Assembly: GCA_916048095.2 (NCBI GenBank)
Contig: OU696580.1
Coordinates: 6,342,608-6,406,607 of the forward strand
DNA length: 64,000 nt
From: Sacculina carcini
Lineage: Eukaryota; Arthropoda; Thecostraca; Sacculinidae
Direction of reading: 5' to 3'
The first letter of the stretch is position 1. Every line of letters starts with the position of its first letter. Under the pieces are notes generated by a model. It did no database searches. It was not told the DNA's origin and worked only from the letters and a program-made list of their open reading frames with translations. Shown piece after piece: positions 1,145 to 60,286 of this stretch. A program made the translations under genes and the position numbers.

Positions 1145-1265
1145 ATGATTTGGACAATCATCAGTATGATCTTCAGTGTGCAATCGGCCCAGACTTTCTC
1201 CAATCAGCAGGTTCCTCGTGCAAGATTCACGTTCTCCCCGGGATTCATATCGTTGAACGTCTCCA
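1145..1265 (+). CDS. protease exon 1: signal peptide and first strand of CBM39-1
   Basis: The ATG at 1145 is followed by a short hydrophobic core ([10 protein letters not shown]) and a small-residue cleavage region (QSAQ). The exon ends with [14 protein letters not shown], which resembles the first strand of CBM39. The donor is CCA|GTAAGT and the exon ends in phase 1. The reading frame is open upstream of this ATG, but the signal peptide fixes the start. Confidence 0.75.
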
Positions 1266-4200
1266 GTAAGTTGCACTTTTTTCTTCGTCAATTTATTTTG
1301 CTGTGATTGTGTTCCCCAATGAAATGGAACATTATTCAGAATATGAAGTGGGCTAACGTAATGAGTCCGTACTGAAAGTTGAAGACTCAATAGAGTGATG
1401 TATTCAATGCAAATGTTTTCAATCTCACTAATTACAAGATGCGTTCGTAAATTTGAAATCAATTGAATTGCAATATACAAATTGAGAAACGAGATGTCAT
1501 ATTTTGTAGAATCAATATATATTGTTTCCGTTGCAGTTGTGAGTAGCAGGTTGCAATATGAAGTAGTGTTATTTATATAATCCTCCAGGCAAACACATAT
1601 GAATGTGTAGCATAAAGAAACAACGTATGATGATGATGAGAGTGGATGATTTAGGTTTTGACGGAGCGAAGGAATGAGAGACATTTAATCATGCGGCTCC
1701 AGAAGATGAATTCTTACTTTTTGAAGGATGGTTCATTGTTAAAGCTCAACTATTTAGTAGCAATGTAAAACGATGTCTGAAACACGAACATACATTTTTC
1801 AAAGTGAATTTTTACGATATGAAATAATACGTTTAATTTGAGACACCAGAAATGGCTATACTAACCAGCTGCAAGGACAAAACACAACATATGAAAGTGT
1901 CATATTGTATTTGAATGTAAGCACGAAAAATAAAAAAGAACAAGAAAGCACGATTCCACACGATCACACCGCAACACAATGCACTAAATACTACTCTCTC
2001 CACCGAACAACACTCTAAACCACTGCACAAACACCACACTCTCACTTCACCAGTAACGCACTGCCCAACATGCATGAGCGACCGTTGACTCCGGGCGGAT
2101 ACCACCCGCGCATGCATGCACTCATAGCTCGCGCTTATGCAACGCAGCTACCTCCGCGCGCGCATACAACAACGTACACAAAATCACACTCCCATGTACG
2201 CACACAAATACACATGCACGCACACACAATTATATATAGTACAAAATACAATACCATGCAATACACAATAAACACAATACACATATTTAAAACGTATGCG
2301 CTGAACTCAGCATACTTGCTGAATTTTCATCGTTGTTGTTTTTGCGTTGACCACAGAAGCACATCCTCTAATGAGCCTTGCAGCCGTGCACTTTTCTCTC
2401 AATGAGCCCGTGTTGGGAACCAAGCCAGGCGATATCAACAAAGATTTGACAGAAGTGGACGGAAAATACTTCTACGATGAGTTCGCGTTAGTTGCTTTGT
2501 GATATTTCACTGTTATTACCTTACCCTGTTGTAAGTTTCACGGAGTTTCAGTCAGTAATGTTGACCTTGTCCCCATATGAATGTGTAACATTACAAGCTA
2601 CTTCTCAATGATCCAAATTCTGCAAACAAAAGTCAAGACTTCAGATTGAAAAAGAATTATACGACATTTTGGGTGATTTTTTCGGGATGTTTCTATTAAT
2701 TTTGAATTAATCCACTGTTATTCATTTCAAAAATGCTTCAAAATGGAAAGAGATGGGGAGGGATATATACTTTTACGTTTATAATTTTTTATGTCCCAAC
2801 ATTTTTGGTAGCCGACCCCTGAAATAGACCTTGAAATGTTCCTGCATGCGGGGCAGTGTTGATTGGGCAGATGGGGACATTCTCTACTACTGGGTGTACG
2901 TTATCGTGGACGGTCTGGGATATCAAAGATTGTCACAACAGCTCACCATCGGCTCACCCTCCTCCGACACCGTCCACTCGTCAACACCCTCCACCACACC
3001 ACGATCACCTCGCGTTCGTGATCTGCCGATACCGTCGCCGGAATTCACGTTTGCTCCTCACATTATCAACGTGAAAGTACCCGGTAATGCCTTGCACGCG
3101 TTTCAGTGGTCATGTGGATTGTTTTGCTTTCGTGATGTGGGGTTTAAATTAATAGACTTGAGAATTTCAATTGAGCGTACGGATTAATCTGCCCTATATG
3201 AGATCAAATGGACACGTTTGACCTCTGAGGAGTGTTATGTTCAAGACGTTTCATCGACCCATATTCGACTTCACTTATACGTGCGTTCATGGTAATGTAT
3301 AAGATGCGACAACCTTAGATATGGCGTGTTCTATGGGTTCCTGAGCGTGTGTTTGTGTTTAATGTGTTGAGCTCCTTCCGGGGCTTCATTGATGGCCATC
3401 CATATGAGCCTCAACAAGCCCGTGCAGGGAGTACAAGCGGGAGATTTCAACGTCGACATGACTCCGCAGGACAACGTCTTCTCCACCAGCGTCACGACCA
3501 ACTGGAAGATCGGGGACATCATCAACTACTGGATGTTGATGAAACACAGGGGATTGGTCTATAGGAAAATGGGACAACATTTCCGCATTGGCGACGGTTG
3601 GTCTCTTGTTTGTCTCTGGTTTCTGGATTATTATATCATTCTGAAATGTGCCGAACATTGATAACAGCCGTTCGTTCATTTGTTCCCTCAAATCATTTGC
3701 ACTTGGTTTCAAACTAACTCCTTGATTGGTCGGCTCGCTTTTCCACTGGGCATTGTTCAAATACTACGGATCTGACCGCTCAAATTGTAACCTAACCTTT
3801 AACATGCTGTTATTGGAGCGGTTGTCTTCGATGTGGTCAAGAAGATAGCTGCGCTGTTGGCGTTGCTTTTCAGAAACATCCACTTCTTCCGATCCGAACA
3901 GTCCAGCTGTGTTTCATACGGACGACTCCAGTAGCACGGAGTGTGATGGTGCGGACACTAATGAATTCTCTTTGCCTCTGGATTGCGGTCGCAAACACTC
4001 CAGCTTCATTGACTCGTTGTTCGGCGACACAGCACTGAGAATTCTTAATGGAACTGAGACGGCACGCGGCGAACATCCCTGGCAGGCGGGATAACAAACA
4101 CCAGTGCTTGTCCTATCTGTATTATCACCTTAATATTCCTAGATAGTTCTGCATTTCTTACTACTAGACATATTATATTATTAGATATTACTGTTTGATT

Positions 4201-7200
4201 GATATGTTTCTAGATAATCTACTTATTCGATATAGAAGCCATTACTGTGGATACGAAAGTTTGACTTATTATTATGATCAGCTGTAATATGCATATGTGT
4301 AATTATTTGCTCGGAAATATCGACATTACAACTAGGTGTTTGTGTTCACTCAGTTGGACGTAAAGTCTGAATTATCCCTTCTTTCATCGATCTTAAGTCT
4401 CTGCTAACTTCGAACGCTTTCAATTTCTTGTTTGTCCCTAACTTTCCCTAATGAGACTTCATCTTGTTCTGTGTTGGAACTTTCTTTAATAAGCAAGTAT
4501 TTGTGTATTTGTCTAGGGGGAGATAGAGATTGAGATGAACGGAGTGTTTGAGCATCATTGTGGCTGCGTTCTGCTCACCAGTCGTATTGTCATCACTGCG
4601 GCGCATTGCCTCACAAAAATCAGACACAAACTACAGGTCATTTACCTATTCCTAACATTCGACCTCAAGCGATTTTCAAGAACTTGCTATCAATATTCAT
4701 ATAATATTGGTGTTTTTTTTTAAAGGATGCTTTGTAGGCTTTTTATCGCTTTTTTTTAATTGTTTCGAAATTTACCTTTTATTTTTTCTATAGTTTTATC
4801 TATTGTATTTTCGTTTTTTTTTAGTTTTTAGAAGAGCACACTTATACTTCAAATATGCATTCCAATTTTATGTTATTTATGAGATACAAGCTTACCGTGC
4901 CTGATTATTAAATGCCAAATTATTATATATCTATATTTGCGATTCATAAATGAGTTAATTCTAAACTCAGCATTTAGACACCATTTATTTATTTTGTCAT
5001 GAAATGTATTGTAAGGAGAAATAACGCACAAACAACAACAATATGGTTTCACAATACACCTGCACGCCCGTGCAGACAAGTCACTAAAAACTCCCCCAAA
5101 CCCACTTTACATTAAACGCAGTAACACCCACACGACACCATCTCATGCACGACACTCCCGATTCATGATCATATCGCTCCGCAATACGCATACACACAAA
5201 CACATACATATACACACACACTGCACGCGCCACTTCCTTGACCGAACAAGGCAGCTGCATTTCACATATCGGTGCACCCGTACAACATTGACGCAGGGGG
5301 CGCAACTACTTGAAACCGCATCGCCCGCACTGCCTAGTGCACTGTCACGTGCAGGCTCGCTCAAAACTACAATACTCGCATATACACAAATAATGTACAA
5401 CGAAAGATACACAAATGTTTATATATACACAACACAAAACCACACCCCCTCCTGATCTCAAGATCACTCTGCAACATAGATGTCCATCCAAATTGGAGGC
5501 CGCTGCTCTCTTCCGGATCGTCTAGGAAGTTGTTCTGTCGGTGAGTCCACTGTTGACAGTCGAACTTCATCGGAACGTTCACCCTCCTCGTCTGGTGGGA
5601 CTTGCACAGGCCGAATATCCAAGATATGGCGCGGAATGCCATTCACCGAAATGTTATTGGGTGAGTGAACATCCGTCACAACGCCTCGAGTCCACTGCGA
5701 AGTACATCGTGCATCCGCCGGCTTCACCCATACTTCTTCACCGATGCGAACGGAGCTGTCTTCACAGTGGTAAATAGCAACACCATCAACAAGTGTTGTG
5801 TTACGCCAGTCGTAGCTATACACGTTACGATGAGGCACCGAAGAATCATCAGTACCTACCCTCGGTGACATGTTGTACCAGTATGCCGCGGTAGTTGGTG
5901 GAACAAAACTTCTTTCAGCCAATGCCTTTATAAAGCGATGATGTCGCTCGACAATCCCATTACCACTGGGGCGGTACGCGGCGCGAAAATACGGCTTCAC
6001 TTTCCACCGCTCCAACAGTTCTCGCATCTCCTGCGAACGAAACGCCCGCCCGTTGTCCATCAGCAGCTCATGAGGCGGTCCTCGCTCACGAAATATTTCG
6101 TCCAGGTGCGTGCATACTTGTTGAGACGTCTCAGATCGTATTTCCCTCCAAATTGCGAACCTCCCTGGTCCACTGTCCACAGCTGTCAAATATTCCCGAT
6201 GGCGGTAATGGGTGATGTCAATGGCTAGTCTATGCCATACTTTGTCGACGCTAAGGTGTCCAGCAACATGAGTCGACGGCGCCGGATCAATTGACTGACA
6301 ACGTTCGCAACCTCTGACCACTCGCCGCACAGTCTCTCGTGATACACCAGGATCCACTCGCCGAGCCAAATACAAGGTTCTGTCCACACCCATGTGGTGC
6401 ATGTTATGCATCTCTCTGATTTCATCCTCAGTCGCTGCACATACATTCTCAGTTGTTTTACGACTACCCGAGAACTTTCCACGCTCAGACAACCACTCTT
6501 TTTTTCACACGTGTCAGCTCGTCAGCTTTGTTCATCGTGGTGGGAACACTCGTAATGCTGACACTCAAGCCCAGCTCTGTAATTAAATCACTCAGCACTC
6601 CTAGTCTTCGCTTGATCAATATTTCAGCTGCACCCTTCGTACGCACCCTTCTTTCCTTGTTTAGCACTGTGCCCACCCAGCCAGCCACCGTTGCAGAATC
6701 CGTGCGAATCTCGATCTCTACCAACTGCCACTTCACCGCCAGGTTCACACCTTTCACCACCGCCTCCAATTCCGCTACGTTTATATGGTGCACATCGTCC
6801 TTCTTTCGTTGCCAGGTCGCGTCTTCAGCAATTTCTCCATCAATCTCGACCGCTGCTCCGATTGCCAGATTACTCGCGTCACACCATACAACTCCCCGCC
6901 TTGTATTAGACACATGCCATCTACCACCCACTGGGTCGTTTTTCTGCACTCTATCTACCATGTCAAGCGTCATTTGCAACACGTCCTCAGGAACCATTGC
7001 ATCCCAGTCCACTCCATCAGCTCGGCGCTTTATGTGGCTGCACGCGATGCTCAGCCACCTGGCCACAGGGTAGTGTCCGATCAACTTCCCGCACAAAGAA
7101 AACAGCTGACGCTTGGTCAGTTCTTCGGTAACATCTGGAATACTGTTGCCTCTGCGGAACAACATACGACCACTATTATCTTTCTGCAGTTTGAGACCCA

Positions 7201-10200
7201 GAACGGCACTTTCCTCTATCGACACCGGCTCCTTTGCTTCTAGGCCATATTTACTCAGATGAGCGACAACATCTCTGCTGGACACAACCGATTCGCGTAC
7301 TATAATATCATCTATGTATGAGTCCGTGCCTTTGTCGATGACTTCAGATTGGCTCAATACTGTACGCACGATACGCGTCATCACTCTGGGTGCCGAGCAC
7401 AGTCCAAATCCCAACCGCGTCAAGCAGTACACCTTACCGTTATATTTGACAAGCTGATGTTTCCACAATTTTGGCACCACATGTACCTGAAGGTACGCAG
7501 CTTTCAGATCAACCAGGGAGGCGGGCCCATCAATGCGTCTCCACTCTCAATTTCTCGCCACAAACATCTACGTAGTCATCGCCCGTATGGCTGCTCACAA
7601 ACTCGTTCAGTTCTCGAAAATCGAGCACTGGGCGCACCTTGTTTTTTGTTGGCTGAACCACCGCTAGCAGTGGCAGCACACCCTTGCAATTCGAATTATT
7701 CCACGGAACAAGAATTCCTTCTGTGATCCAACGCTGAACCTCTGCATCAAATTCATCGCGAATATCATCTGTCACCGTCTGTTCATAACATCCAACTGTT
7801 CTTGACAACCTAGGCTCGTCTCCTGTCACTATCCACTCGATCTCCCACTTATTGCCATCAAAAACAGCAGTGAAATCAGGATCGGTTATTTCTAGCTTCT
7901 CATTTGTGGAGCTATCAACTTCCTCACACTGACCACAAGACACATCACTGCTTGCACTCGCGACACAATTGTCTACACCAAATTTCACTTTAGAACCACA
8001 TACAAAAACACCGCCAAGTTTGTCAATAATATTCATCCCAATCACTATGTCTACGTCACCCACAATACTGTCAACAATTACAGCACGCACACTCATTTGC
8101 TTACCAGACACTTCAATATTAATCCAAGCAGTACCCCGACACTTAACTTTCCGCCCATCGAACGCCGTCATCAAACTACTGCCCTCAATATTTTCCACCA
8201 AATTAGAACGCACAACGGCCCCTGAGCAGCCCGTTTCAACCAAGGCATGCACAGTCTCACCTGACAGTCTCGCTTCGATGATCGGCAGTGTACTTGGCGC
8301 CTTCAGTGAGTCGTCGGAGTGACTGCTGGCGCACCAGTCACTCCTGCACCGTTTCCCTGCCGGCACTGTCTGGAGATATGTCCTCTTTGTCCGCATGTGT
8401 AGCATATAACGGACTCCCGCCTCGGACAAGCTCGTGACGTGCGGGCCGCCGCATACGAAGCACCGACCCCTGAATTGCGGACTTCTCCTCTCGCTGTCTG
8501 GATGAATACGGTCATGACATGCTGCCGGGGCTGCTGCGGCAGCCGCGACCGGTCCGTCGTTCTTAGTCAGCACACGAGCGTGATTTATTAGCACCGACAT
8601 TTGCATTGTGTGCACGTTCTCCATTCTCTGCAAACTCGATCTGATATGTCTGGGGAAGCCATTCACAAATTGCAGTCGGCAAATATTGTCCAGTGCTTCT
8701 CCGTGAAAATTCGCCAACCCAGCAAGTCGTCGGATTTCGGTGGCGAACACATGCACTGATTCACCGTGCCACCTCTTTTCGGACAGCTTACCAAACGCAT
8801 CAAACGAATCATCACTGTAGGCTATTTTCAGGGCACTCTCAATCTTCTCAGCACTCTCCTGATCACACTCGTCCATCTCCAAGAACAACGCCAGAGCATC
8901 ACCTTCGAGATGCAGAGAAATAAAGCTGGCGACATCTTCCACCTTCTTCAGTCTGGCTACGAGTCTGGCTTTTGTGTGCCACGCCACGACGTCTCCATCA
9001 CCATTGAACGACCGCATTGCACAATCGTTGTTCATCGCTGACATGATGCTGAACGGCCGGTTAGCTTGTGATGAAATGTATTGTAAGGAGAAATAACGCA
9101 CAAACAACAACAATATGGTTTCACAATACACCTGCACGCCCGTGCAGACAAGTCACTGAATACTCCCCCAAACCCACTTCACATTAAACGCAGTAACACC
9201 CAAACGACACCATCTCATGCACGACACTCCCGATTCATGATCATATCGCTCCGTAATACGCATACACACAAACATACATACACATACATATACACACACA
9301 CTGCACGCGCCACTTCCTTGACCGAACAAGGCAGCTGCATTTCACATATCGGTGCACCCGTACAACATTGACGCAGGGGGCGCAACTACTTGAAACCGCA
9401 TCGCCCGCACTGCCTAGTGCACTGCCACGTGCAGGCTCGCTCAAAACTACAATACTCGCATATACACAAATAATGTACAACGAAAGATACAACAACAACA
9501 ACAACAACAGTGTGTATTTGGTATAGCGCCCATCATCATAGGCGCGCAGACGAGTACTTATACAGATAAACATGAAATATAAACTGGCAATGCGAGCATG
9601 GGATCATACGATAATAATATAGAGCTCGATCACAAAACAACAAAATAAAACGCGGATTAAATCAAGGAGAAAACGCAGAATCAAACAAACAACTATATAA
9701 AAGAGAGATCAGAGGGAGGCGAAAGGAGTCAAGGCGTGCGTGGTGGGATCAAAGGATAGATCAAAAAGATATTTACGAAGAGAAGCAGCAAATGAGCGAT
9801 ATGAAAACGATGAGGTGATGTGAGAGGGGAGAGAGTTGTAAAGACGCGGACCGAAAAAGGAGAAAGATTTGGAAGACCACGCGGACTCATTTAAAGCGCG
9901 AGGGCAGGCTAAAGGGACAGGATGTCGAGAAGAGGGGGTTTCAGAGAGAGAAAGTAAGGCATAGAGATACGTAGGTTTAGTGGGACAGTGCAATAGTTTG
10001 AAGATTATGGAGCAAATTTTGAAGTGAATTCTAGATTTGATGGGAAGCCAGCGGAACTTGAAGAGATAAGGAGAAGTATGGCGGCAGAAGGCAGGATATA
10101 AAACAAAACGGCAGGATTGGTTCATCACACGCTGGAGAATTTTCAAGGAAGATTTAGGACACTTGAAGTGGAGCGAGCTGCAGTAATCCAGTCTAGAAAA

Positions 10201-13200
10201 GATGAGTGATTGAACAAGCTTGATAGAAGAGGGCTGGTCGAGGCATGAACGGATAGGATAGAGAGAGCGGAGTATAAGGCGACAGATGCGAGCAGTAGCA
10301 AGAATATTGGCAGAGAAGGAAAGTGAGGAATCAAAGATAATGCCAAGGTTTCTAACAGACGAAGAGAGAGATATAGGCAAAAGAGGAGGAGACAAACGAG
10401 GAGGGTGAAGAGCAAGAAATTCTGATTTATCAGTATTCAGAAGAAGTCGACGGGAGGAGGTCCAAGAAGATATATCAGAAAGTATACCAGACAGAAGAGC
10501 AGGGTCAGAAAAGGGACAAGGTATATAGAATTGGATGTCATCAGCATATATGTGAAAAGGGATAGACCAGCGTCGAAGGATAGTGCAGAGAGAAGACATA
10601 TAAAGATTGAAAAGAAGAGGACCAAGGATAGACCCTTGAGGTACACCAGAGGTAAGAGGGATCGAATTAGAGACGGAAGAGTTGAACTGGACAGAGTAAG
10701 ATCGATTATGCAAATTGGAGCGAAGCAAGGAGAGCGCGGAATCAGAAACACCAATGTGAGAAAGGTCTTTAATGAGAATTTCATGATCTACAAGGTCAAA
10801 TGCTGAGCTTAAGTCAAGAAGGACAAGGAGAATGGATTTTCGAAAGGAGAATGACGACAAAATACCTTCAGTGACCGAGATGAGGACAGATTCAGTACTA
10901 TGAGAAGGACGAAATCCGGATTGGTGAATGTCAAGGACGTTACAAATGAAAGGAGATAACTGAGAAAAGATGGCAGATTCCAGGAGTTTGGAGGAAAAAC
11001 TAAGGAGGGATATAGGACGGTAGTTACAGCATAAGGAAGGTTCAAGCGAGGGCTTCTTGAGGATAGGGCGAACATAGGCGTGCTTATCAGCAAGAAAATT
11101 TCCATGTAAGAAGGAGGAGTTAATAAGATGGAGTAAATAAGGAGTCAGGGTGTCGATAGCAGGAGCAATTATACTGAAGTTAATCGGATCAGGAGGAGAC
11201 GAGAGAAATTTACGGGAGAAGAGAAGAGATAAGAAGTCAGAAATTTCAAGATGAGAAAAGGATGAGAATTTGCATAGGGAGGTGGTATGTGTGACGAGGA
11301 AAGCAGAAGAAGGAATTCTAGATTGGGCGGAAATGATTTTGCTTGTGAAATAGGAGGAAAGCTCGTTGGCGGTTAGAGAGGAAACAGCTGAGGGCGAGCG
11401 AAGGCCAGAGAGGGAGTTGAGTGTGTTCCAGAGAGCTTTAGGAGATCGAGAAAGAGAAGAAAGTCGAGACAAGTAATAAGCTTGCTTGGAGGATGCTAGA
11501 GAAGAAATATATAATGAGCGAGCAGAGCAAAAAGTAGACCAGTCACAAGAGAGGCGAGTGCGTCGCCAGGTACGCTCCAACGCCCTAGAACGACGTTTCA
11601 GACGATCAAGGTTAGGATTATTACAAGGAGACGAACGAGGACGAGAAGAACGGAGAGTCAGAGGGAACAAATGGTTGTTAATGAGGGATAGAGTAGAAAA
11701 GAGGAGAGGATAAATATCGGAGGGAGGAAGAGAGTAAAGAATATGTAGAGGAAAGGAATTTGCAAGAAGGGTCTGAAAGAGAGAAGGGTAAAAAAATTTG
11801 TAGTTGCGAGAAAAGGTAGGGGAAGGCATTGAATTAGGAGGTCCGGAGGCAGGAAGTGATGTAAGAATGAGACTATGGTCAGAGAAGGAAGAGTCGGGGG
11901 GAAGAACAAAAACTTCGGAAGGAGGAGAATCAGTAGAGAGAACAGGAGAAGGGAAAAGAACTAAATCAAGAGTGTGGCCCGAAATGTGTGTGGGAGAAGA
12001 AACAGGAGATACAAGACCATGAGAATCAAGGAGAGAGATAAAATTCGAGGAATATGAGGAAATAGCAGGACATTCGACCCAGAAATTAAAATCGCCGAGG
12101 ACAAGATAACAACTAGAAAAGGAAGATTCAATAGCTTCAATAAGAGAGGAGAATTCAGAGAAAAAAGATGAAGTAGTGCAAGGATGATTATGTCGATAAA
12201 CAATAAGAATACAAAATTTAGGATAGGATAGGATACACAAATGTTTATATATACACAACACAAAACCACATATTTGTCTTGGCGTATTATTTTTATCGAG
12301 ACTTGCGGTGTTAATTAGTTAATTATGAATTAACACAGGTAAGATTGGGTCAATATGATCGAACTGTGGCTGGAGAGCCCGGGGAGCAAGTGTTTGCAAT
12401 TCAGAGCAGCGTCGAACACGCCAACTTTCGTTCAGGTACTGCACCGCTGAACAAAATATTTCTCTCCAACTGAAGTATATATGTGTGTGTACTGTAGGTA
12501 ATAGTTTAATTTAAGCTCATGTTTTAATCCAAAATTCTACTGCATATTTTCCATTATTAGTCTGCCAAAGTTTTATTTATCCAAAACAATAAGCTTCATT
12601 ATAGTATGAATTATATCAATATTAATAAAGTACAAATATGTGCAATGGTTAGATGAAAAACGTAAATTAACACGTAAATGATTGGAAAGGACGGATTTTT
12701 TTCTCAACATATTGTATATGTGCAACAAACAGAACATTTGAAAAATACTACCGGAGAAAAGTTCAAATTTTTACTGGGCTTATTGGACCCAGTATTAATA
12801 ATAAAAACCTAGTACTTCAGTCCTGAAAAGTGACCTGGTCTTAATATAACCAGGTGGGCTTAATAGCCGCTAGCTGTGGTATCATATACACAAAACCTGT
12901 GCAATAATAATAATAATAATAGGATTTATTGCAATCGCAACATAATAGGCGCTTTTCATTGCAATAATCAACACACAAAAAATAATAAAAAAGAAAGAAT
13001 AGAAGAGACACAAATTTATAGACAGATAGGAAGCAATTTTTCAAAAGAGTTTCGAGGCAAAATAATTAAGTCTTCTGTGTCCTGCATCAGTATTAGTCCT
13101 CGGAATTGATATTGTGTTCGTATGGCGTAGGATATTCGACTGGAGATTGCGTATTTCGATTGTACGGTATGTGTGTGTGGGTGTGTTGGGAAGACGCAAC

Positions 13201-14436
13201 TCGAGGCTACTTGAACGACATAGCGTTGTTATTGCTACGTCGCAACAGCGCCGGTCTCGGTGGTGTCGTGCAGTTCAGCGACCACGTGCGACCCATCTGT
13301 CTTCCTCCGTCCAGCAGCCAAATCAACGAGTCGTTCACCTGCTTCGTCTCGGGATGGGGTGAGATCAGGGGCGGCGCCAGGATTCTCCCCTGGGGGGTTG
13401 AGGAAAAATATGTGGGGCTTGGCGAAATGTGAGCTAAGAGCTCTTGAAATGCTCATTGTCAGAATTTTGTTTCATTGAGTTTCAACGTGTCCAAGCTCAT
13501 AGCGGTGCCATTTGTCCTATTCCTTCACAAAACATATATGTATGCGTGTGTGTGTGTGTATGTGTGTAGACAAACTGCGTGTATGTAACTGAATATGTGT
13601 GTCTGTATGTGACATTCTATATGTGTTAGTGTCTATCTGTCTTTATATATGTATGAGTGTGTGTGTCAGTATATGTGTGTGTATGTCTGTGTGTGTGCAG
13701 GCAAAACATCGCCGCATTCGCCCGATTCTATCGCGTCTTTTTCGCGCGTGTTGCGAGCGGCCACGGTTCCTGTCGTGTCGGCTTCTTATTGCTCGTCGCG
13801 CGAGGTTTACTCGCAGAGGTTTGACACACAGCGCCATCTGTGTGCCGGGCATATTCGCGGCGGAGGAGCGGATTCTTGCGGCGGCGACTCAGGAGGACCG
13901 TTGGCGTGTCGTCTACGTTCAGGTCTACAATAGATACGTACAGGCTACATAATATACTGATATACTAGGTGTACTAATTGTCTGTATACGTAATTATTGT
14001 GCTGTTAATCATAATTTGACTTCATAATCACGATCTGCCTCGATTCAATCAAAGAGTATTAATTAATACTGTCGTGTATATGGTCGGATTACAATCATAA
14101 GACTATACGTCATACATTTCAATTATTACGGTATCAAATTAGAACATATTTTGGTGATAATTTTAGGATAGGATTATTTAATTCTAGGATAATTATCTGT
14201 AATTCATTAGCCACCCAATTTTAGGAAGCAATTTTTAGGCCGTTCAGAATCTCTGTAGGAGTTTCACCATTTTGGAAACTTGTTGGTTCTCAGAGGATGC
14301 GTGGATGTTGGCGGGAGTGGTGTCGTGGGGAGCCGAATGTGGTTCCCAGGTGTTTCCCGGTGTCTACACCCGAGTGGCGCACTATATCAACTGGATCCAA
14401 CGCACCATCAGGTTCCTGCAGTGCACATCCGCCTGA
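1145..14436 (+). CDS. secreted serine protease with two CBM39 beta-glucan-binding domains (10 exons, 547 aa)
   Basis: Joined exons 1145-1265, 2357-2480, 2857-3083, 3372-3596, 3874-4085, 4517-4636, 12339-12435, 13206-13358, 13701-13922 and 14294-14436 give 548 codons with continuous phase. The order is signal peptide (about 1-16), CBM39-1 (about 25-113), Ser/Thr/Pro linker, CBM39-2 (about 144-231), a second linker with Cys256 and Cys270, activation site Arg288|Ile289, then an S1A protease. The catalytic triad is His333, Asp380 and Ser490. Asp484 at the base of the S1 pocket predicts trypsin-like cleavage after Arg/Lys. Cys270 probably pairs with Cys407 of the PICLP motif, so the glucan-binding chain would stay attached after activation. 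CBM39 is the sensor domain of invertebrate beta-1,3-glucan recognition proteins. I infer a zymogen that binds fungal glucan and starts an extracellular proteolytic cascade. The architecture is read directly; the function is inferred. Confidence 0.85.
2357..2480 (+). CDS. protease exon 2: core of CBM39-1
   Basis: The acceptor is CCACAG|AA and the donor is GATGA|GTTCGC. The exon encodes [19 protein letters not shown] followed by VDGKYFYD. This matches the CBM39 pattern of a paired strand, an L/I-N-x-P motif, an acidic loop and an aromatic strand. The phase is 1 in and 2 out. Confidence 0.8.
2857..3083 (+). CDS. protease exon 3: end of CBM39-1, linker, start of CBM39-2
   Basis: The acceptor is GGGGCAG|T and the donor CCCG|GTAATG. 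The exon encodes the CBM39 signature [18 protein letters not shown] (residues 88-105). A Ser/Thr/Pro-rich linker follows (about 115-143). The exon ends with [14 protein letters not shown], which echoes the end of exon 1 and opens the second CBM39. Confidence 0.88.
3372..3596 (+). CDS. protease exon 4: CBM39-2
   Basis: One exon carries the rest of the second module: [19 protein letters not shown], then [10 protein letters not shown] and HRGLVYR. The first module spreads the same region over two exons. The acceptor is TTGAG|CT and the donor GACG|GTTGGT, phase 1 to phase 1. The copies are clearly related but diverged, so the duplication is old. Confidence 0.82.
3874..4085 (+). CDS. protease exon 5: linker, activation site, start of catalytic chain
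   Basis: The acceptor is CTTTTCAG|AA. A Ser/Asp-rich linker carries Cys256 and Cys270 (LDCGRK) and leads to the zymogen cleavage site ALR|ILNGTE (Arg288|Ile289) and HPWQ. No GT donor exists before the in-frame TAA. The phase-consistent end is CAG|GCGGGA at 4085, implying a GC-AG intron. The exon is solid but its 3' boundary is less certain. Confidence 0.8.
4517..4636 (+). CDS. protease exon 6: catalytic histidine
   Basis: The acceptor is TCTAG|GGG and the donor CTACAG|GTCATT, 40 codons, phase 0 both ends. It encodes HHCGCVLL and ITAAHCL. His333 is the general base, and Cys318 and Cys334 form the usual C42-C58 pair. Cys320 replaces the glycine commonly found two residues after Cys42 and has no obvious partner. 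Confidence 0.9.
4990..4994. repeat. 5-bp target-site duplication (left), TATTT
   Basis: TATTT lies directly before the left LTR and again at 12271-12275 directly after the right LTR. This fixes both edges of the LTR element and shows that they were made by one insertion. Confidence 0.85.
4995..5444 (-). repeat. 3' LTR of the gypsy-like element (left in the window)
   Basis: This 450-bp repeat starts TG and ends CA. It matches 9067-9490 plus 12237-12270 with only a handful of differences visible by eye. In element orientation it is the 3' LTR, preceded by the polypurine tract at 5445-5453. Confidence 0.9.
5445..5453 (-). other. polypurine tract
   Basis: On the minus strand, AGGAGGGGG lies directly against the start of the 3' LTR (TGTGG...). 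This is the expected plus-strand priming site of an LTR retrotransposon. Confidence 0.75.
5464..6505 (-). pseudogene. integrase region of the gypsy-like pol
   Basis: An HHCC zinc-binding module (H-x-H near the start, CERC near residue 45) precedes a DDE core. Aspartates sit in LAIDITHY and LLMDNGRAF, and the glutamate in [12 protein letters not shown]-terminal chromatin- or DNA-binding-like tail follows, ending at a stop at 5464. The frame joins the RNase H region only across a shift at a run of seven T (plus strand) near 6500. Confidence 0.85.
6485..7540 (-). pseudogene. reverse transcriptase (catalytic half) and RNase H of the gypsy-like pol
   Basis: The RT part includes [19 protein letters not shown] and the catalytic box YIDDI. 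RNase H follows with [25 protein letters not shown] and a final KADELTR. It connects to the upstream fingers region ([10 protein letters not shown]) only through a frameshift near 7530. Confidence 0.88.
7530..8330 (-). pseudogene. aspartic protease and RT fingers of the gypsy-like pol
   Basis: The protease motif reads [11 protein letters not shown] where D-T/S-G is expected, so the catalytic aspartate is a glutamate in this copy. Later residues [15 protein letters not shown] are the RT fingers motif typical of Ty3/gypsy elements. Confidence 0.82.
8303..9044 (-). pseudogene. gag of the gypsy-like element
   Basis: The likely ATG is at 9044, only 23 bp inside the 5' LTR. A helical capsid-like region of about 190 residues is followed by zinc-knuckle cysteines. 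CFVCGGPH is in one frame and [14 protein letters not shown] in a neighbouring frame, so an indel lies near 8430. The second knuckle's frame stops at 8303, and protease resumes in the first frame. That second switch could be a natural gag-pol frameshift. Confidence 0.8.
9491..12231 (-). mobile_element. 5'-truncated CR1/L2-like LINE nested in the LTR
   Basis: The copy begins (minus strand) inside the endonuclease domain (GDFN, then SDHSLI). It continues through RT ([37 protein letters not shown]) to a stop at 9709. A 3' region of about 0.2 kb ends in (TTG)n. The frame is open for more than 800 codons, so the insertion is young although truncated at birth. GATAC is repeated at 9486-9490 and 12232-12236 as the target-site duplication. 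It is younger than the LTR element it interrupts. Confidence 0.9.
9709..12231 (-). CDS. LINE ORF2 fragment: endonuclease C-terminus and reverse transcriptase
   Basis: The fragment is uninterrupted from the truncation point to TGA. An apurinic-type endonuclease tail precedes a complete RT with catalytic YADD and a C-terminal domain with the recurring [17 protein letters not shown] region. The same C-terminal domain is recognisable in relics at 35.4-36.0 and 36.5-37.4 kb. Confidence 0.88.
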   Translation of the reverse strand, partial: LSYPKFCILIVYRHNHPCTTSSFFSEFSSLIEAIESSFSSCYLVLGDFNFWVECPAISSYSSNFISLLDSHGLVSPVSSPTHISGHTLDLVLFPSPVLSTDSPPSEVFVLPPDSSFSDHSLILTSLPASGPPNSMPSPTFSRNYKFFYPSLFQTLLANSFPLHILYSLPPSDIYPLLFSTLSLINNHLFPLTLRSSRPRSSPCNNPNLDRLKRRSRALERTWRRTRLSCDWSTFCSARSLYISSLASSKQAYYLSRLSSLSRSPKALWNTLNSLSGLRSPSAVSSLTANELSSYFTSKIISAQSRIPSSAFLVTHTTSLCKFSSFSHLEISDFLSLLFSRKFLSSPPDPINFSIIAPAIDTLTPYLLHLINSSFLHGNFLADKHAYVRPILKKPSLEPSLCCNYRPISLLSFSSKLLESAIFSQLSPFICNVLDIHQSGFRPSHSTESVLISVTEGILSSFSFRKSILLVLLDLSSAFDLVDHEILIKDLSHIGVSDSALSLLRSNLHNRSYSVQFNSSVSNSIPLTSGVPQGSILGPLLFNLYMSSLCTILRRWSIPFHIYADDIQFYIPCPFSDPALLSGILSDISSWTSSRRLLLNTDKSEFLALHPPRLSPPLLPISLSSSVRNLGIIFDSSLSFSANILATARICRLILRSLYPIRSCLDQPSSIKLVQSLIFSRLDYCSSLHFKCPKSSLKILQRVMNQSCRFVLYPAFCRHTSPYLFKFRWLPIKSRIHFKICSIIFKLLHCPTKPTYLYALLSLSETPSSRHPVPLACPRALNESAWSSKSFSFFGPRLYNSLPSHITSSFSYRSFAASLRKYLFDLSFDPTTHALTPFASL
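12339..12435 (+). CDS. protease exon 7
   Basis: The acceptor is AACACAG|GTA and the donor TTCAG|GTACTG. The exon encodes [19 protein letters not shown], the strand after the histidine loop in S1A proteases, and ends HANFRS. It is phase 0 in and phase 1 out and lies only 68 bp right of the LTR element. Confidence 0.88.
12436..13205. other. intron 7, holding a dispersed repeat
   Basis: About 12511-12870 is a non-coding repeat whose inverted copy is at 42603-43010. A short (TAA)-type run lies near 12903-12920, next to a LINE- or SINE-like tail. The rest is AT-rich and unremarkable. Confidence 0.6.
13206..13358 (+). CDS. protease exon 8: catalytic aspartate
   Basis: The exon encodes [10 protein letters not shown] (Asp380), HVRPICLPP (Cys407, the partner of the activation-chain cysteine in two-chain proteases) and CFVSGWG. 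The donor is ATGGG|GTGAGA. The acceptor CTCGAG|GC has a weak pyrimidine tract but keeps phase and joins NFRS-GYLND correctly. Confidence 0.88.
13359..13700. other. intron 8, with a MITE-like fragment and TG tracts
   Basis: About 13370-13490 is a diverged copy of the GGCGGCGCCAGG repeat also seen near 38.1, 48.8 and 57.5 kb. It begins about 12 bp after the donor. (TG)n-rich DNA fills the rest up to the acceptor at 13700. Confidence 0.6.
13701..13922 (+). CDS. protease exon 9: catalytic serine
   Basis: The acceptor is GTGTGCAG|GC and the donor TTCAG|GTCTAC. The exon encodes [20 protein letters not shown] and [14 protein letters not shown]. Ser490 is the nucleophile, Asp489 pairs with the new Ile289 N-terminus, and Asp484 gives Arg/Lys specificity. 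Confidence 0.92.
13923..14293. other. intron 9
   Basis: AT-rich DNA with no recognisable repeat or exon. It ends in the acceptor GGTTCTCAG at 14293. Confidence 0.6.
14294..14436 (+). CDS. protease exon 10: C-terminal strand and helix
   Basis: The exon encodes [28 protein letters not shown] and a short tail QCTSA before TGA. The S1 wall residues (SWG and the following glycines) fit trypsin-like specificity, and the C-terminal helix is present, so the catalytic domain is complete. Confidence 0.92.
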
Positions 14437-18300: not shown

Positions 18301-21300
18301 AATCTTTTGGGCGCTTCCGGTACATGGGGCCACCTTAGGGTGGTAATAGTGCTTGCACTCTTCCCATGCTACTGGATTTGCCTGTAATTAATAATAATAA
18401 TAATATTACACACACACAAGCACACGTTCATACACAATTACCGTATTTGCCGTTGTAGAAGTCGACCTTTTTCGATCAAAAATCGACCGGAAAAAATCGA
18501 TCTCGACTTATACACCGAGTTATAAAAATTTAACTTCGTATTCATCGCTTCAAATGTGATGGTAATCAAGGCCGTTTCTCATGCATCTCATTGTGTGTGT
18601 GTGTGTGTGTGTCAGGCTCATCAAACAGCGAGAAACTGAATCATTATAAAGCGTTCGTCGCATTATTATATAATTGTTAATATACAAGTTAAATATAATG
18701 AAACAATTGAGCTCGAATTATACAAAGGATATATCATAATATACAAAGGGTATACACAAACACGAACACACACACACACATACGTAAACATAAACATACA
18801 TACGCACATACACATTATACAAACAATAGCACACACACACACACACACACACACACGAAGATAAATACACAAACACACAAACATTTACAGAAGTACATAC
18901 ACACATTGAATACATAGAAATTCACCTACATACAAACACACACAGACACACAAACATACACATCACATCTTTTGCATTTTCTGGAGTGATTTTTAAGAGT
19001 GATTTTTAGCACGGGCGCTTGTGAAAATCTACTACGATCTGGGATCTATCAGATACAAGAGATCAGTGGTTCCCAAAGTTTAATTGTCTGAATGTTGTCT
19101 GAATTGTCATGTCATCTTGCTTAAACGGCTACAATAGCTAAGAAAATAAACTCGTTTACTAAATTGGATTATATTTGTGAAATACACAGTTGTGTTTGTT
19201 TCCATATGTTTGTGTGTGTTTGTGGGGGGGCGCTAGAATTAACCAGGGAGCTAATAGGGGGCGCCAGCTTGCCTAAAAGTTTGGCAACCACTGATATAGA
19301 TCACCATCTACAGCTCTAGTGATGCACATTCATTTGCTCCTCGGAGATCGTAGGAAACACCGCCTTGGACATACAGACAGACACACACGTTGAATTATGA
19401 AAAAAGCTTAGTGAAAATTGGGTTGTCGTCACTGGAAAAGAGAAGGTTAAGGGGGGGATTTTCAAGCACAGCATTGGTATGGAACGATTGGGTGGTTTGG
19501 AGTACGAGGGACCATAGGGGACACAATAAATGTCTACAGCAAACCCGGGTATTAAGGGATATAAAGAAGTACAGTTTCCCAAGTAGGTGTATAGATATAT
19601 GGAACCGTCTGGGTAAAGAAATAGTTCAATCAAACAGTATAGCACAGTTCAAGCATAGGTTAGATAAATGTGGGTATGGAGACAGGACAGCCTGAGCCCT
19701 GCTCATTTCCTGTAAACTACAACTGTGAGTACAACTGTGAGTACACACAGGCAGACAGACAGACAAACATACCTCGAGCATGCTCTTCGGTTCGGGTAGC
19801 TCACTGCCCTTGTAGATATCCATGTAGGACTGGAAATACGTGCTCAACTCCTTGACACGCACTTTCTGACCAGATATCTCCTTGATGACCAAATTTTCGG
19901 CAGATAGAAGCTTGGGCACCAGCTGTTTCAGCTGCTCCACAAAATCCGCCTCAATATCTGCAACAAGGAAATGTGCAACATGAAATAATTCAACGATACA
20001 CACATCAAATCATGACACATACAGCATGCGACAAGTTTAACAGATAACATTCAACAACAACATTCTGGCTAGAAACAACCGCAACGACACACACACACAC
20101 ATACATTGAGACACACACACACACACATACACACAGTAAACATACACATATATTGACACACACACACACGGGCACACATATTGAGATACACAGTACACAC
20201 ACACACACACACAGTAAACATACATATATATTAACACACACACATTGACACAGTAAACACACATATTGACATACACACACACACATTGACATACAGACAC
20301 ACACACACACACACATACACACACCCGATAAGCGTCCGTCGAATTGTTGTTTGGTTGCCACAGTGAGACCGGGATGAGGCATCAGGAAACAGCTGATCTC
20401 GTCGAAACAGCTGCGAATATGCTTGCGTAAACTCTGCAGCTCAGCATGCTGTTTGTCCGACACCTAACACATCAACACAAACAAACACAAACAAACACAC
20501 ACACACACACACACACATGTGCCGTAAAAGCTCTATTTGAAGACACACAAGCACACATACAGACACGCATATGATACAAACACACAAGTACAGACAGACA
20601 GACACATGTAAAACACAAACACACACACATACACAAGTAGACATACAGACAAACACACACGCACAGAGAGACAGACAGACAGACAGACTCATATGTTGTA
20701 CCTGCAGTCGTTTTTCTAGCAGCTCGGCGCCGCCTTCACTGCCGTACGCAGAGTCGTAGGGAAAACTCCAATCTCTCACGAGAAACTGCAGCTTCTGGAA
20801 GGGCTTAAATGAACTATCCTCCATGGCCAGCCGGCCGTACTCGGTAAATAACTGTATATAAGTGCACACACATCGACACACACACACACACACAAGATGT
20901 GATACACATGCATGGGACACACACACACATATTCGCCCGTTATAAATGGGTCATTAGGTCATTGACCTCTGATAAGTAGGTCAATGGGTCATTCACCCGT
21001 GTTAAGTCGGGCACTAGATTATTAAACTGTACTAAGTAGGTTAACAGGTTATGGCGCTGTCAAAACTGGGTCAATAACCTGAAAAACTAGGTTAATAGGT
21101 CCTGTAATTAACTTGATTGAGAATTTAAGAATTAATTAAGAATTAAGAAGAATTTATTAAGAATTAATTATTAAGAATTTTAATAATTAAGAAATTAATT
21201 AAGAATTAAGAATTTAATTAAGAATTTATATCAATAAGGTCGTTGACCTGTGAAACCCAGGTCAATTTGTTATTAAACTGTAAAAACTAAATCAATATGT

Positions 21301-43691: not shown

Positions 43692-44873
43692 CTACCCAAA
43701 CACGAGGCACAAACAGCGACGCATCCCGATGGCCAGTTGTCGAGAGCAGCGTCGAATTTCCGCGTTGCTGGCGCTGTTCACCAGTGGATTAACGGCCGCA
43801 TGACTGACTGCCACCAGCTGCAACCAATCGTGCGGCAAAACGCCGTCGCTAGCGGAGACCGCGTTGAAATTATCAACGTCACCAACCAAATCAACATCGG
43901 TCATCCACCATGGACGCAACATCAGCCACACACATAGAGGCGCCCAGCATACGACAAACACCAGCGGCGCGAGTAGCGCGTGATTGCAGCGACTTATCGC
44001 CGGACGACTGCTGCCGTCAGCTGCCGTACGTCGACGGACGTGCCGGTGCAGTCCAGAGGCGCCGCTCACACTGCACTCGGTCGAGGCAATAGCGCGCATG
44101 TGCGAGCGTGCCACAGAGTAAACAAACAAGTAGCAGACGAGCACAATGCCGGACAGAGGAAAGAATACGCCGGCCGCTAGTGCAGCCACAAGACGTGCGT
44201 CAACGTCCGTCAGCATGCAGCGAGGCCGGCCTCCGCCGGAATCGCGTGCGTTGTCTGAGCCGCTGTTCCACAAGAGATTGACGGCCGGCGCGGCGGCGAC
44301 GCACAGTCCAGCCAACACTGCAGCCGGTAGGAATCGTCGCGCATGCCGGCTGGCTCCTGCGGCATGATACGTCAACGGCCAGGCGAGAGAACAAAAACGA
44401 TCCACCGCCACGGCAGCCGTAGCCAGCGCCGACACGGTGACACAGGCTAGCACGCAGCAATATGCCGATACGCAGCCCCACTGGCGCGCCGTACTCCACC
44501 AAATAACGTTCGAATCGCAAGCCGACGGAATTGACGGTACGGCAGAAGTCACAGCCATACGTCCGATCAGTAAACACGCGCTTAACAAGCCTGTTCCCGT
44601 GTCGGCAAGAGCCATGAGCAACAGAAGCTGCCCTACAGCTGAGGCGAGCATACTGCGACCATGAAGTACCAGCGAACAGCTTACGAACACGTTGACCAGA
44701 ATTACACAGGCACACAAAACGGACGCACAAGCGACAAACACACTGTTCATCGAAGTGTCGACTTCAATACTGGTGGAATTGCCGTGTCCGCTGCGAGGTG
44801 GATGTGCTGGTGATGGAGAGAACGAAGGTGTAGATGGTGGAACAGTGTACATAATGGCCGCAGATGAACACAT
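43692..44873 (-). CDS. rhodopsin-like (class A) GPCR, orphan, 393 aa
   Basis: The frame is uninterrupted from ATG (44873) to TAG, with seven hydrophobic segments. TM1 contains ILVNVFV, TM2 MALAD (Asp2.50), TM3 starts at Cys3.25 and ends VDRF (DRY variant), TM5 FFPLSG, TM6 VVCWAPL (CWxP intact), TM7 AVNPLVN (NPxxY with Asn for Tyr). An N-glycosylation site NST lies in the extracellular N-terminus. Position 3.32 appears to be Val rather than Asp, so it is not a typical amine receptor. The ligand is unknown. TTTAG directly before the ATG looks like a splice acceptor, so an intron may lie in the 5' UTR. Base composition is GC-richer than the flanks, as expected for an exon. Confidence 0.88.
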   Translation of the reverse strand: MCSSAAIMYTVPPSTPSFSPSPAHPPRSGHGNSTSIEVDTSMNSVFVACASVLCACVILVNVFVSCSLVLHGRSMLASAVGQLLLLMALADTGTGLLSACLLIGRMAVTSAVPSIPSACDSNVIWWSTARQWGCVSAYCCVLACVTVSALATAAVAVDRFCSLAWPLTYHAAGASRHARRFLPAAVLAGLCVAAAPAVNLLWNSGSDNARDSGGGRPRCMLTDVDARLVAALAAGVFFPLSGIVLVCYLFVYSVARSHMRAIASTECSVSGASGLHRHVRRRTAADGSSRPAISRCNHALLAPLVFVVCWAPLCVWLMLRPWWMTDVDLVGDVDNFNAVSASDGVLPHDWLQLVAVSHAAVNPLVNSASNAEIRRCSRQLAIGMRRCLCLVFG

Positions 44874-56600: not shown

Positions 56601-59600
56601 GATATAAATTACACCGAGTACCGCCACGAAAGTGCACAAGTTCATAACAAAACAATGACGTCATACGATATCGGTATAAAATGACTGGTTTATTTATAAT
56701 CCAAGAACCTTGGAACAAATCAGTATCGAATTCAATACACAGGCATACACAGATGTTTTCAAATTGTGGCCAAGCATTGGATCATAACATAGAATTAATG
56801 ATTGTATGGCTATGTATTACCTATATGAATAAATTTGATTGGGAAAACTTAACTCTCCTTTCGTCCTTCTGGCTACGCTCATGGACAACACGACACCGAC
56901 ACATCTAAGAATTAACACAAACGCTTAGTGATTTATCATTAACAGCGCCTATTAGCTGGGGTATTTTGCAAGTATGTGTGATTAGGTGGAAATAAGAAGG
57001 TCAGTGTAGACAGCCGAGGACAATTGTATTGTTCTCGCTGGCTTTTGTTAAATTATAATTGAACTTGGGACTGACAATTATCAGTCCAAATTCTCAGAAG
57101 GTTTCTTAGACGAATTTTAGAATGCGACGTAGAACATTTGAATTGGCTAATCGCTCTAATCAATTGAATAAATTATAGCAGGTGTATCAAACAAATATTT
57201 TCTAGCGGCCCGCCAAAAAAACAACAAACCAAAAAGAATCAGACATCATATCACATTTTATATTTACTAATTTATGCACTACGTATTTTCATACTAATTA
57301 AGTAGCTTACTAAATAATTTATCATGTTCTCTCAAGTGATATCTTAATATGCTGAAGACTATCAAGTTGGCAAAAGCTATCGAATTGTTTTTTATTGTTA
57401 TAATTATGTTTAATTCGGTTCTCGTGTTAATTCTATTGGATAAAATTGGACCAATGTTGTCAATATGTGTGTGCGTGTGTGTGTATGTGTGTGTGTATGT
57501 GTGTGTATGTGTGTGTGTATGTGTGAAATACACTTGAAATGCTCATGGTCGGAATTCTTGGGGAGCTCAACATATTTTCAGCCCCTCCAAGCAGCCCCTC
57601 CTGGCTTCGCCACTGATAACCTACCTTTCTATGTTGGTTTCGTTCTAGCTTATACCAGCTGATCTGGGCGGCGGGATTAGCACTGACTTGACACGATAGT
57701 GTCGCCCTCTGCCCGCCATCAGCCGAAACATCAACAGGCTCGGCAACAAACCGCGGCAGATCTGAACACCGCACACAATGACACATTGGCACATTGACAC
57801 ATTGACACAATGACACATTGACACAATGACACAATGACACACTGACACATTGACACACTGACACATTGACACATTGAGACAACGACACACTGGCACAATG
57901 ACACAATAACACAATGATACAATGTCACATTGACAGAATGAAACGATGCCACAATGACATAATGACACAATGACACAATGACACAATGACACAATGACAC
58001 ATTGACACAATGTCACAATGACACACTGGCACAATGACACAATGCCACAATGATACACTCACACAATGACACAATGACACACTGGCACAATGACACAATG
58101 ACACAATAACACAATGACACAATGACACAATGGCACAATATAACACAATGACACAATGACACAATGGCACAATAACACACTGAAACAATAACCCAATGAC
58201 AACATGACACAATGACACACTGACACGCTGAAATAATGACACAATGACACAATGACACAATGACACAATAACACAATGACACAATGACACAATGGCACAA
58301 TAACACAATGACACAATGACACAATGGCACAATAACACACTGAAACAATAACACAATGACAACATGACACAATGACACACTGACACAATGCCACACTGAC
58401 ACAATGACACACTGACGCACTGACATAATGACACAATGGCACAATGACATAATGACACAATGACACACTGACACAATGCCACAATGACACACTGACACAA
58501 TGACACAATGACACACTGACACGCTGACATAATGACACAATGACACAATGACACAATGACACAATGACACACTGACACAATGCCACAATGACACAATGAC
58601 ATAATGACACAATGCAATAATGACACAATGACACAATGACACAATGACACAATGCCACAATGACACAATGACACAATGACACAATGACACAATGACACAA
58701 TGACACAATGACACCATGCCACAATGACACAATGGCACAATCTCACAATAACACAATGACTCAATCCCATAATCCCACAATAACACAATGACACAATAAC
58801 ACAATAACACACTGACACAATGCCACAATGACACAATGACATAATGACACAATGCCACAATGACACAATGACATAATGACACAATGAAATAATGACACAA
58901 TGACACAATGACACACTGACACACTGACATAATGACACAATGACACAATGACATAATGACACAATGGCACAATAACACAATGACACAATGACACAATGGC
59001 ACAATAACACACTGAAACAATAACACAATGACAACATGACACAATGACACACTGACACAATGCCACAATGACACACTGACACAATGACACACTGACGCAC
59101 TGACATAATGACACAATGGCACAATGACATAATGACACAATGACACACTGACACAATGCCACAATGACACACTGACACAATGACACAATGACACACTGAC
59201 ACGCTGACATAATGACACAATGACACAATGACACAATGACACAATGACACACTGACACAATGCCACAATGACACAATGACATAATGACACAATGCAATAA
59301 TAACACAATAACACAATGACACAATGACACAATGACACAATGACACAATGACACAATGACACAATGACACCATGCCACAATGACACCATGCCACAATGAC
59401 ACAATGGCACAATCTCACAATAACACAATGACTCAATCCCATAATCCCACAATAACACAATGACACAATAACACAATAACACACTGACACAATGCCACAA
59501 TGACACAATGACATAATGACACAATGCCACAATGACACAATGACATAATGACACAATGAAATAATGACACAATGACACAATGACACACTGACACAATGAC

Positions 59601-60286
59601 ACAATGACACAATGACACCATGACACAATGACACCATGCCACAATGACACAATGACACAATGACACCATGCCACAATGACACAATGGCACAATGACACAA
59701 TGGCACAATCTCACAATAACACAATGACACAATCCCATAATCCCACAATAACACAATAACACAATAACACAATAACACAATGACACAATGACACATTGAC
59801 ATAATGACACAATGACATAATGCCACAATGACACAATGAAATAATGACACAATGAAATAATGACACAATGACACAATGACACAATGACACACTGACACGC
59901 TGACATAATGACACAATGACATAATGACACAATGACACAATGACACAATGACACAATGACACACTGACACACTGACACAATGACACAATGACACACTGAC
60001 ACAGTGACACAATGACACAATGACACACTGACACAATGACACAATGACACACTGACATAATGACACAATGACACACTGACACAATGACACAATGACACAA
60101 TGACACAATGACACACTGACACAATACTTGAAGTTGCACGCGCTGGCTGCCTGTTCCTACTGAGCTAGTCACGTGACAGCTAATATTGGCTTGGTGCAGC
60201 TCGCGACCCACTGATAACAGCTGCAGCTGTTGTCGCCAGCTTTCAGCCACCGGCTGCTCGTTGATTGTCCAGCTGTACGTCAGCTG

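Follow-up and report, generated by a model that had tools for sequence, protein, structure and literature searches.

Does the detection of fungal beta-1,3-glucan have to be separated from the protease that answers it, or can a single chain do both? The question is raised by a gene on the forward strand of a 64,000-nucleotide stretch of the Sacculina carcini genome (assembly GCA_916048095.2, contig OU696580.1, here C15, positions 6,342,608 to 6,406,607), which we call the window. The initial annotation proposed that ten exons at 1145-14436 encode two CBM39 domains fused to a complete trypsin-type protease. As judged from the genomic sequence, this architecture is well supported, and it is plausible that such a protein would set off a cascade directly on glucan.

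In the original gene model, the ten exons join in phase to an open reading frame of 547 residues, and this version was used for the whole-protein Pfam scan, the search with the protease and the substitution rates given below. Pfam recognises CBM39 in two stretches (82.8 bits, E 1.7e-23) and Trypsin at residues 289-535 (197.6 bits, E 3.2e-58); at such E-values a chance origin of the matches is very unlikely. Scored singly, the CBM39 domains reach 51.1 and 41.6 bits, the PF15886 cut-off being 25, and the protease reaches 200.5 bits over positions 1-220 of the 220 in the PF00089 profile, with catalytic triad and activation site present. These profile scores uphold both the two sensor domains and the completeness of the protease. 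In a copy of the PDB, each CBM39 domain retrieves five beta-GRP/GNBP3 N-domain sequences, identical for both domains, and no other at E<=1. The protease retrieves 434 distinct sequences at E<=1e-20; among the 60 of these that were listed, the best are tissue plasminogen activator, factor XII and prostasin, and such matches indicate an S1A protease of regulatory type and nothing narrower. At E<=1, the scan of the protein returned only CBM39, Trypsin and a DUF1986 match below its cut-off, with no GH16-like C-terminal domain, no LDLa or Sushi modules of the HP14/ModSP kind and no CLIP domain. The organisation of factor G is not found either, since one chain is predicted and glucanase- or xylanase-like modules are missing from it. 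A glutamyl-tRNA reductase match to the N-terminal part (E 0.57) was judged to be chance.

How are these parts arranged? We number residues on a 549-residue version of the protein, preferred for reasons given below, in which every position after the exon 2 junction is two higher than in the 547-residue model. A signal-peptide-like hydrophobic N-terminus of about 15 residues (judged by eye) is followed by CBM39-1 (about 20-118), a Ser/Thr/Pro linker and CBM39-2 (about 141-236). A further linker with Cys258 and Cys272 leads to the activation site Arg290|Ile291 and to a protease with the triad His335, Asp382 and Ser492. The S1 residue, Asp486, is of the Asp189 type, and trypsin (Arg/Lys) specificity is expected. 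All the residues named in the initial annotation were located, in 547-residue numbering, where it had put them (Cys270, ILNG at 289, His333, Asp380, Cys407, Asp484 and Ser490). On the usual chymotrypsin pattern, Cys272 would pair with Cys409 (Cys270-Cys407 in the shorter model), a disulphide that we infer from position and that would keep the sensor tethered to the enzyme after cleavage. Cys258, Cys322 and Cys546 presumably have no standard partner in that pattern.

The two sensor domains are identical to each other at 36 of 94 aligned residues, and to the Plodia domain at 29 of 79 (CBM39-1) and 24 of 78 (CBM39-2). Six glucan-contact positions were compared, Trp76 being one of them. The others are Tyr78, Gly83, Gly85 and Arg87 (PMC6678557, partial text) and Asp49 (PMC7915573, a figure legend); published residue numbers were shifted by 2 to fit the PDB chain, an offset deduced from the Tyr-Gly-Gly-Arg pattern. 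Domain 1 keeps five of the six, with Gln in place of Arg87.

Can the exons be expected to form one transcript? The in-phase joining was reproduced, but the 'perfect phase' claimed for it masks ambiguous junctions at exons 2 and 8 and a GC donor at exon 5. Splice sites were scored with a textbook matrix, percentiles being relative to all GTs or AGs in the window. For the end of exon 2, the donor at 2486 (CGC|GTTAGT) scores -2.1, against -7.0 at 2480 and -5.3 at 2498, and the corresponding CBM39-1 scores are 51.1, 48.3 and 43.4 bits. Because the donor at 2486 scores better and raises the domain score, exon 2 probably ends there, which would make the protein 549 and not 547 residues long. The position of the exon 8 acceptor is uncertain, as three sites preserve the phase: 13206, 13194 and 13131 (549, 553 and 574 residues), with Trypsin scores of 200.5, 200.0 and 189.3 bits. 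An in-frame ATG at 1100 offers an alternative start with 15 more residues, three arginines then standing ahead of the hydrophobic stretch.

At exon 5, no GT donor occurs between the GT at 4019 and the in-frame stop at 4092-4094, so this exon would have to end at a non-GT donor. The best candidate is the GC at CAG|GCGGGA, whose score is high (5.2, with the C at +2 excluded from the matrix). Read-through past it gives HPWQAG and then a stop, two codons after the donor. Since intron 5 has the sensor and the activation site on one side and the catalytic core on the other, a transcript that retained it would encode the sensor alone. The locus might then yield mainly a secreted CBM39-CBM39 lectin without protease, with the full fusion as a minor isoform. 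The early stop, the missing GT and an identical GC in a duplicate of the gene (see below) fit this idea, as does the precedent of two Drosophila GNBP paralogues that have a signal peptide, a CR domain and nothing else (PMC2685406, partial text). However, the donor score is high, exons 6-10 are open and every catalytic residue is present, and we regard a locus devoted mainly to the lectin as improbable. Less credit is due to a split of the locus, with exons 1-4 as the gene of a CBM39 protein and exons 5-10 as that of a protease which just happens to lie next to it. Exon 5 is in phase with exon 4 and itself bears the linker, the propeptide and the activation site, and both CBM39 modules have phase-1 introns at their borders, as exon-shuffled modules do. 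In addition, no start or signal peptide was seen for the protease alone, though no dedicated search was made. Two genes are very unlikely.

Contig C15 carries a further copy of exons 1-7 some 128 kb upstream of the gene (at about 6215950-6224030; L003, L004). Near-identical exons 8-10 were found for it neither among 149 trypsin matches in the genome nor in the 30 kb aligned, and its exon 1 carries a 127-base insertion after the signal-peptide start; for both reasons the duplicate is probably not a working protease. The two copies differ by 12 substitutions in 1126 bases of exons 1-7 versus 79 in 2077 bases (3.8%) of introns 1-5 (Fisher P 3e-6), gap columns being excluded (127 in exons, 391 in introns). 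In codons 9-375, 7 synonymous and 5 non-synonymous changes give a ratio of non-synonymous to synonymous rates (dN/dS) of 0.21, a value that rests on these 12 changes only. The comparison suggests that the CBM39 exons, the linker and the protease start are under coding constraint. Together with the profile matches and the in-phase exons, the lower divergence of exons than of introns supports the single chain first proposed. Could the locus nevertheless be decaying, or be an assembly-level duplicate and not an active gene? The missing exons and the insertion of the upstream copy would suit such a state, as would an intron 6 filled by transposons and some weak splice sites, whereas the window copy has ten open exons and intact catalytic residues, and dN/dS is 0.21. 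We consider decay or an assembly effect quite improbable.

The reading that we prefer, and to which we give about an even chance, is that a secreted zymogen gathers in clusters on beta-1,3-glucan, activates itself and initiates a cascade of the CLIP-Spaetzle type. Two tandem CBM39 domains, covalently joined through a linker with a propeptide Cys to an S1A protease of trypsin specificity, would hold several zymogens on fungal glucan, the pair of modules providing avidity. Under such crowding, trace activity could cleave neighbouring zymogens in trans at Leu-Arg|Ile, a sequence that fits self-cleavage because the expected specificity of the protease itself is Arg/Lys. The propeptide disulphide would then tether the active enzyme to the glucan-bound sensor. 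From there it may cleave downstream zymogens, most plausibly CLIP proteases that lead to Spaetzle and Toll. In the simplest mechanism, the zymogens would cluster on glucan and then cleave one another in trans.

Does the genome hold the other parts of such a cascade? The 264 Mb in 43 contigs were searched with profiles in six frames, exon by exon; these searches have limited sensitivity, and their counts refer to exons, not genes. The window gene and its upstream duplicate are the only CBM39 loci found genome-wide with the Pfam CBM39 profile; weak similarity to CBM39 on C11 (E 2.58) and, with five stops, on C6 (E 0.54) was judged to be chance. No match was obtained to GH16 at E<=1 or to Hemocyanin_M (hemocyanin/PPO) at E<=0.1. 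CLIP gave 5 matches, all above cut-off, Spaetzle 23 at E<=0.1 (16 above cut-off) and the complement/TEP thioester domain 10. The counts suggest an arthropod-type set in which CLIP and Spaetzle are present and a standard beta-GRP is undetected. If hemocyanin-type proteins are truly absent, phenoloxidase would be a less likely target. It is possible, if doubtful, that in a lineage without GH16-type beta-GRP the CBM39 sensor persisted through its fusion with an initiator protease, as a one-chain self-activating alarm upstream of CLIP, Spaetzle and Toll.

Trypsin-like matches number 149 by exon (150 of 166 candidates were scored), including seven exons of the window gene and the duplicate. This abundance and the trypsin-type S1 Asp speak for the main rival explanation, a digestive or environmental protease in which CBM39 anchors trypsin on food rich in beta-1,3-glucan (algae, fungi) and which other trypsins activate. 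Against this role, regulatory modular proteases typically carry a propeptide Cys positioned for pairing with C122, whereas digestive trypsins typically do not, although chymotrypsinogen has it. The insect record also counts against it, the CBM39-type N-domain being described there in immune beta-GRP/GNBP3 (PMC7915573). Overall, we hold a digestive protease to be unlikely.

Several points weigh against a glucan-triggered initiator. The gene model derives from genomic sequence, from which the transcript is deduced; the exon 5 donor is GC and not GT, and among the gene's acceptors that of exon 8 is the weakest (22nd percentile of window AGs). Domain 2 keeps four of the six contact positions (Tyr78 is Leu, Gly85 is Val); the arginine that domain 1 lacks is present there, and position 78 varies to some degree even among glucan binders, the Bombyx chain having Phe. 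In the flank ahead of exon 1, the copies are identical at 1139 of 1140 bases. Because this flank is more alike than the exons, selection alone does not account for the uneven divergence, and gene conversion is perhaps another cause. Few changes underlie dN/dS, and the estimate of constraint covers exons 1-7, exons 8-10 lacking a counterpart in the duplicate. The absences from the genome carry the limited sensitivity of the search. Lastly, a digestive role would fit the same anatomy.

Table 1. Exons of the CBM39-protease gene, with exon 2 as in the 549-residue model, and transposon features of its intron 6 (window positions)
Feature	Position	Strand	Content and remarks
Exon 1	1145-1265	+	Signal peptide, CBM39-1 start; donor CCA|GTAAGT, 98.6th percentile of window GTs
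Exon 2	2357-2486	+	CBM39-1 first half; end at 2480 in original model
Exon 3	2857-3083	+	CBM39-1 second half, Ser/Thr/Pro linker, CBM39-2 first strand
Exon 4	3372-3596	+	CBM39-2 core; 35.2 bits as single exon (genome search); acceptor 49.5th percentile
Exon 5	3874-4085	+	Linker, propeptide Cys, putative activation site ALR|ILNG; GC donor at end
Exon 6	4517-4636	+	Protease, catalytic His (AAHC)
Exon 7	12339-12435	+	Protease
Exon 8	13206-13358	+	Protease, catalytic Asp (DIALL); acceptor uncertain
Exon 9	13701-13922	+	Protease, S1 Asp and catalytic Ser; donor 64.5th percentile
Exon 10	14294-14436	+	Protease end, C-terminal Cys, stop
Gypsy-like long terminal repeat (LTR) element, intron 6	4994-12270	-	LTRs 4994-5444 and 9066-9491 + 12232-12270; broken by 9492-12231
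RVT_1 reverse-transcriptase frame	9709-12318	-	Mostly within 9492-12231, a stretch absent from the duplicate

The LTR pieces of the Gypsy-like element in intron 6 are 96.5% alike over 426 columns, with a further 39 bases at 100%, and the element has integrase, RNase H-type, DUF7047 and weak aspartic protease matches. It is common to both copies of the gene and uninterrupted in the duplicate. The interrupting stretch, which bears the reverse transcriptase and occurs in the window copy only, is by this comparison a later arrival within one LTR, on the same strand. Elsewhere in the window, on the reverse strand, two frames at 20005-20950 partially match the guanylate-binding-protein/atlastin GTPase domain (PF02263), and a 393-residue frame at 43692-44873 partially matches rhodopsin-type G-protein-coupled receptors (PF00001). 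A repeat at 57925-60164, also on the reverse strand, is open in several frames with a VSLCHCV-type translation and is probably a satellite and not a gene.

Seven proteases from outside the locus were scanned for further domains; four have no second domain above cut-off and three have CUB. The latter (L018, L023 and L026) resemble the fusion in layout, an N-terminal CUB being followed by trypsin with an R|I site, and are 39%, 35% and 35% identical to the CBM39-fused protease, respectively. They differ in carrying CUB instead of CBM39 and in having modules and protease in one uninterrupted frame. Two other proteases, L020 and L021, have an unusual Cys two residues past the first disulphide Cys (FCGC; compare HCGC in the fusion protein). 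Trypsin-like sequences form clusters at C9:10299749-10374850 and C37:4626069-4774889, with many uninterrupted frames of about 290 residues, and some matches lie within very long frames (C16:650205-650837, 2790 residues; C37:2023049-2023174, 1741 residues).

Has such a fusion been described before? No description of a CBM39-protease fusion was found in the open-access literature searched, and it may still be catalogued elsewhere, for example in domain databases. The words 'CBM' and 'glucan' do not occur in the text of a Nematostella survey of 72 trypsin proteins with 24 associated domains (PMC6767649). Nor does the fusion appear in the partial texts of studies on Aplysia (PMC9334734), placozoans (PMC11452194), Daphnia (PMC2685406) and malacostracans (PMC5437397).

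In known systems, sensing and cutting are divided, as the initial annotation had it for both glucan-recognition proteins and factor G. A beta-GRP/GNBP3 consists of an N-terminal glucan-binding domain and a glucanase-like domain; in insects, glucan drives the N-domains into oligomers, a possible platform for downstream proteases, and the route from glucan binding to protease activation is not fully understood (PMC7915573). In Manduca, the cascade is started by a separate protease, HP14, upon stimulation by beta-GRP2 (PMC7215089, excerpt). This pair shares with our proposal a CBM39-type beta-1,3-glucan sensor upstream of a serine protease cascade and ligand-driven clustering. In contrast, its sensor has a glucanase-like domain and works with a separate LDLa/Sushi protease, while here two CBM39 domains would sit on the protease itself, without GH16. 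Horseshoe crab factor G likewise uses duplicated glucan modules to bring a serine protease zymogen to beta-1,3-glucan, but it is a non-covalent alpha/beta heterodimer, and the modules of its sensor subunit, alpha, resemble glucanase A1, xylanase A and xylanase Z and not CBM39 (PMC7915573 and PMC6272582, in the sections available).

If a single-chain sensor-protease is real, one molecule would both detect the fungus and start the defence cascade, where known systems use two proteins. The step from glucan to protease activation would become testable with one purified protein, which might also serve as a one-component reagent for the detection of fungal glucan. GH16 proteins, whose domain defines beta-GRP and glucanases in the work of Palmer and Jiggins, are absent from the chelicerates studied there (PMC4833078, partial text). 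A survey built on that definition would miss a fusion sensor, and the view that lineages without GH16 proteins lost beta-GRP-type sensing would have to be qualified. The predicted protein has the defining domains of neither beta-GRP, factor G, HP14/ModSP nor the CLIP proteases, and yet its action would unite those of the first three.

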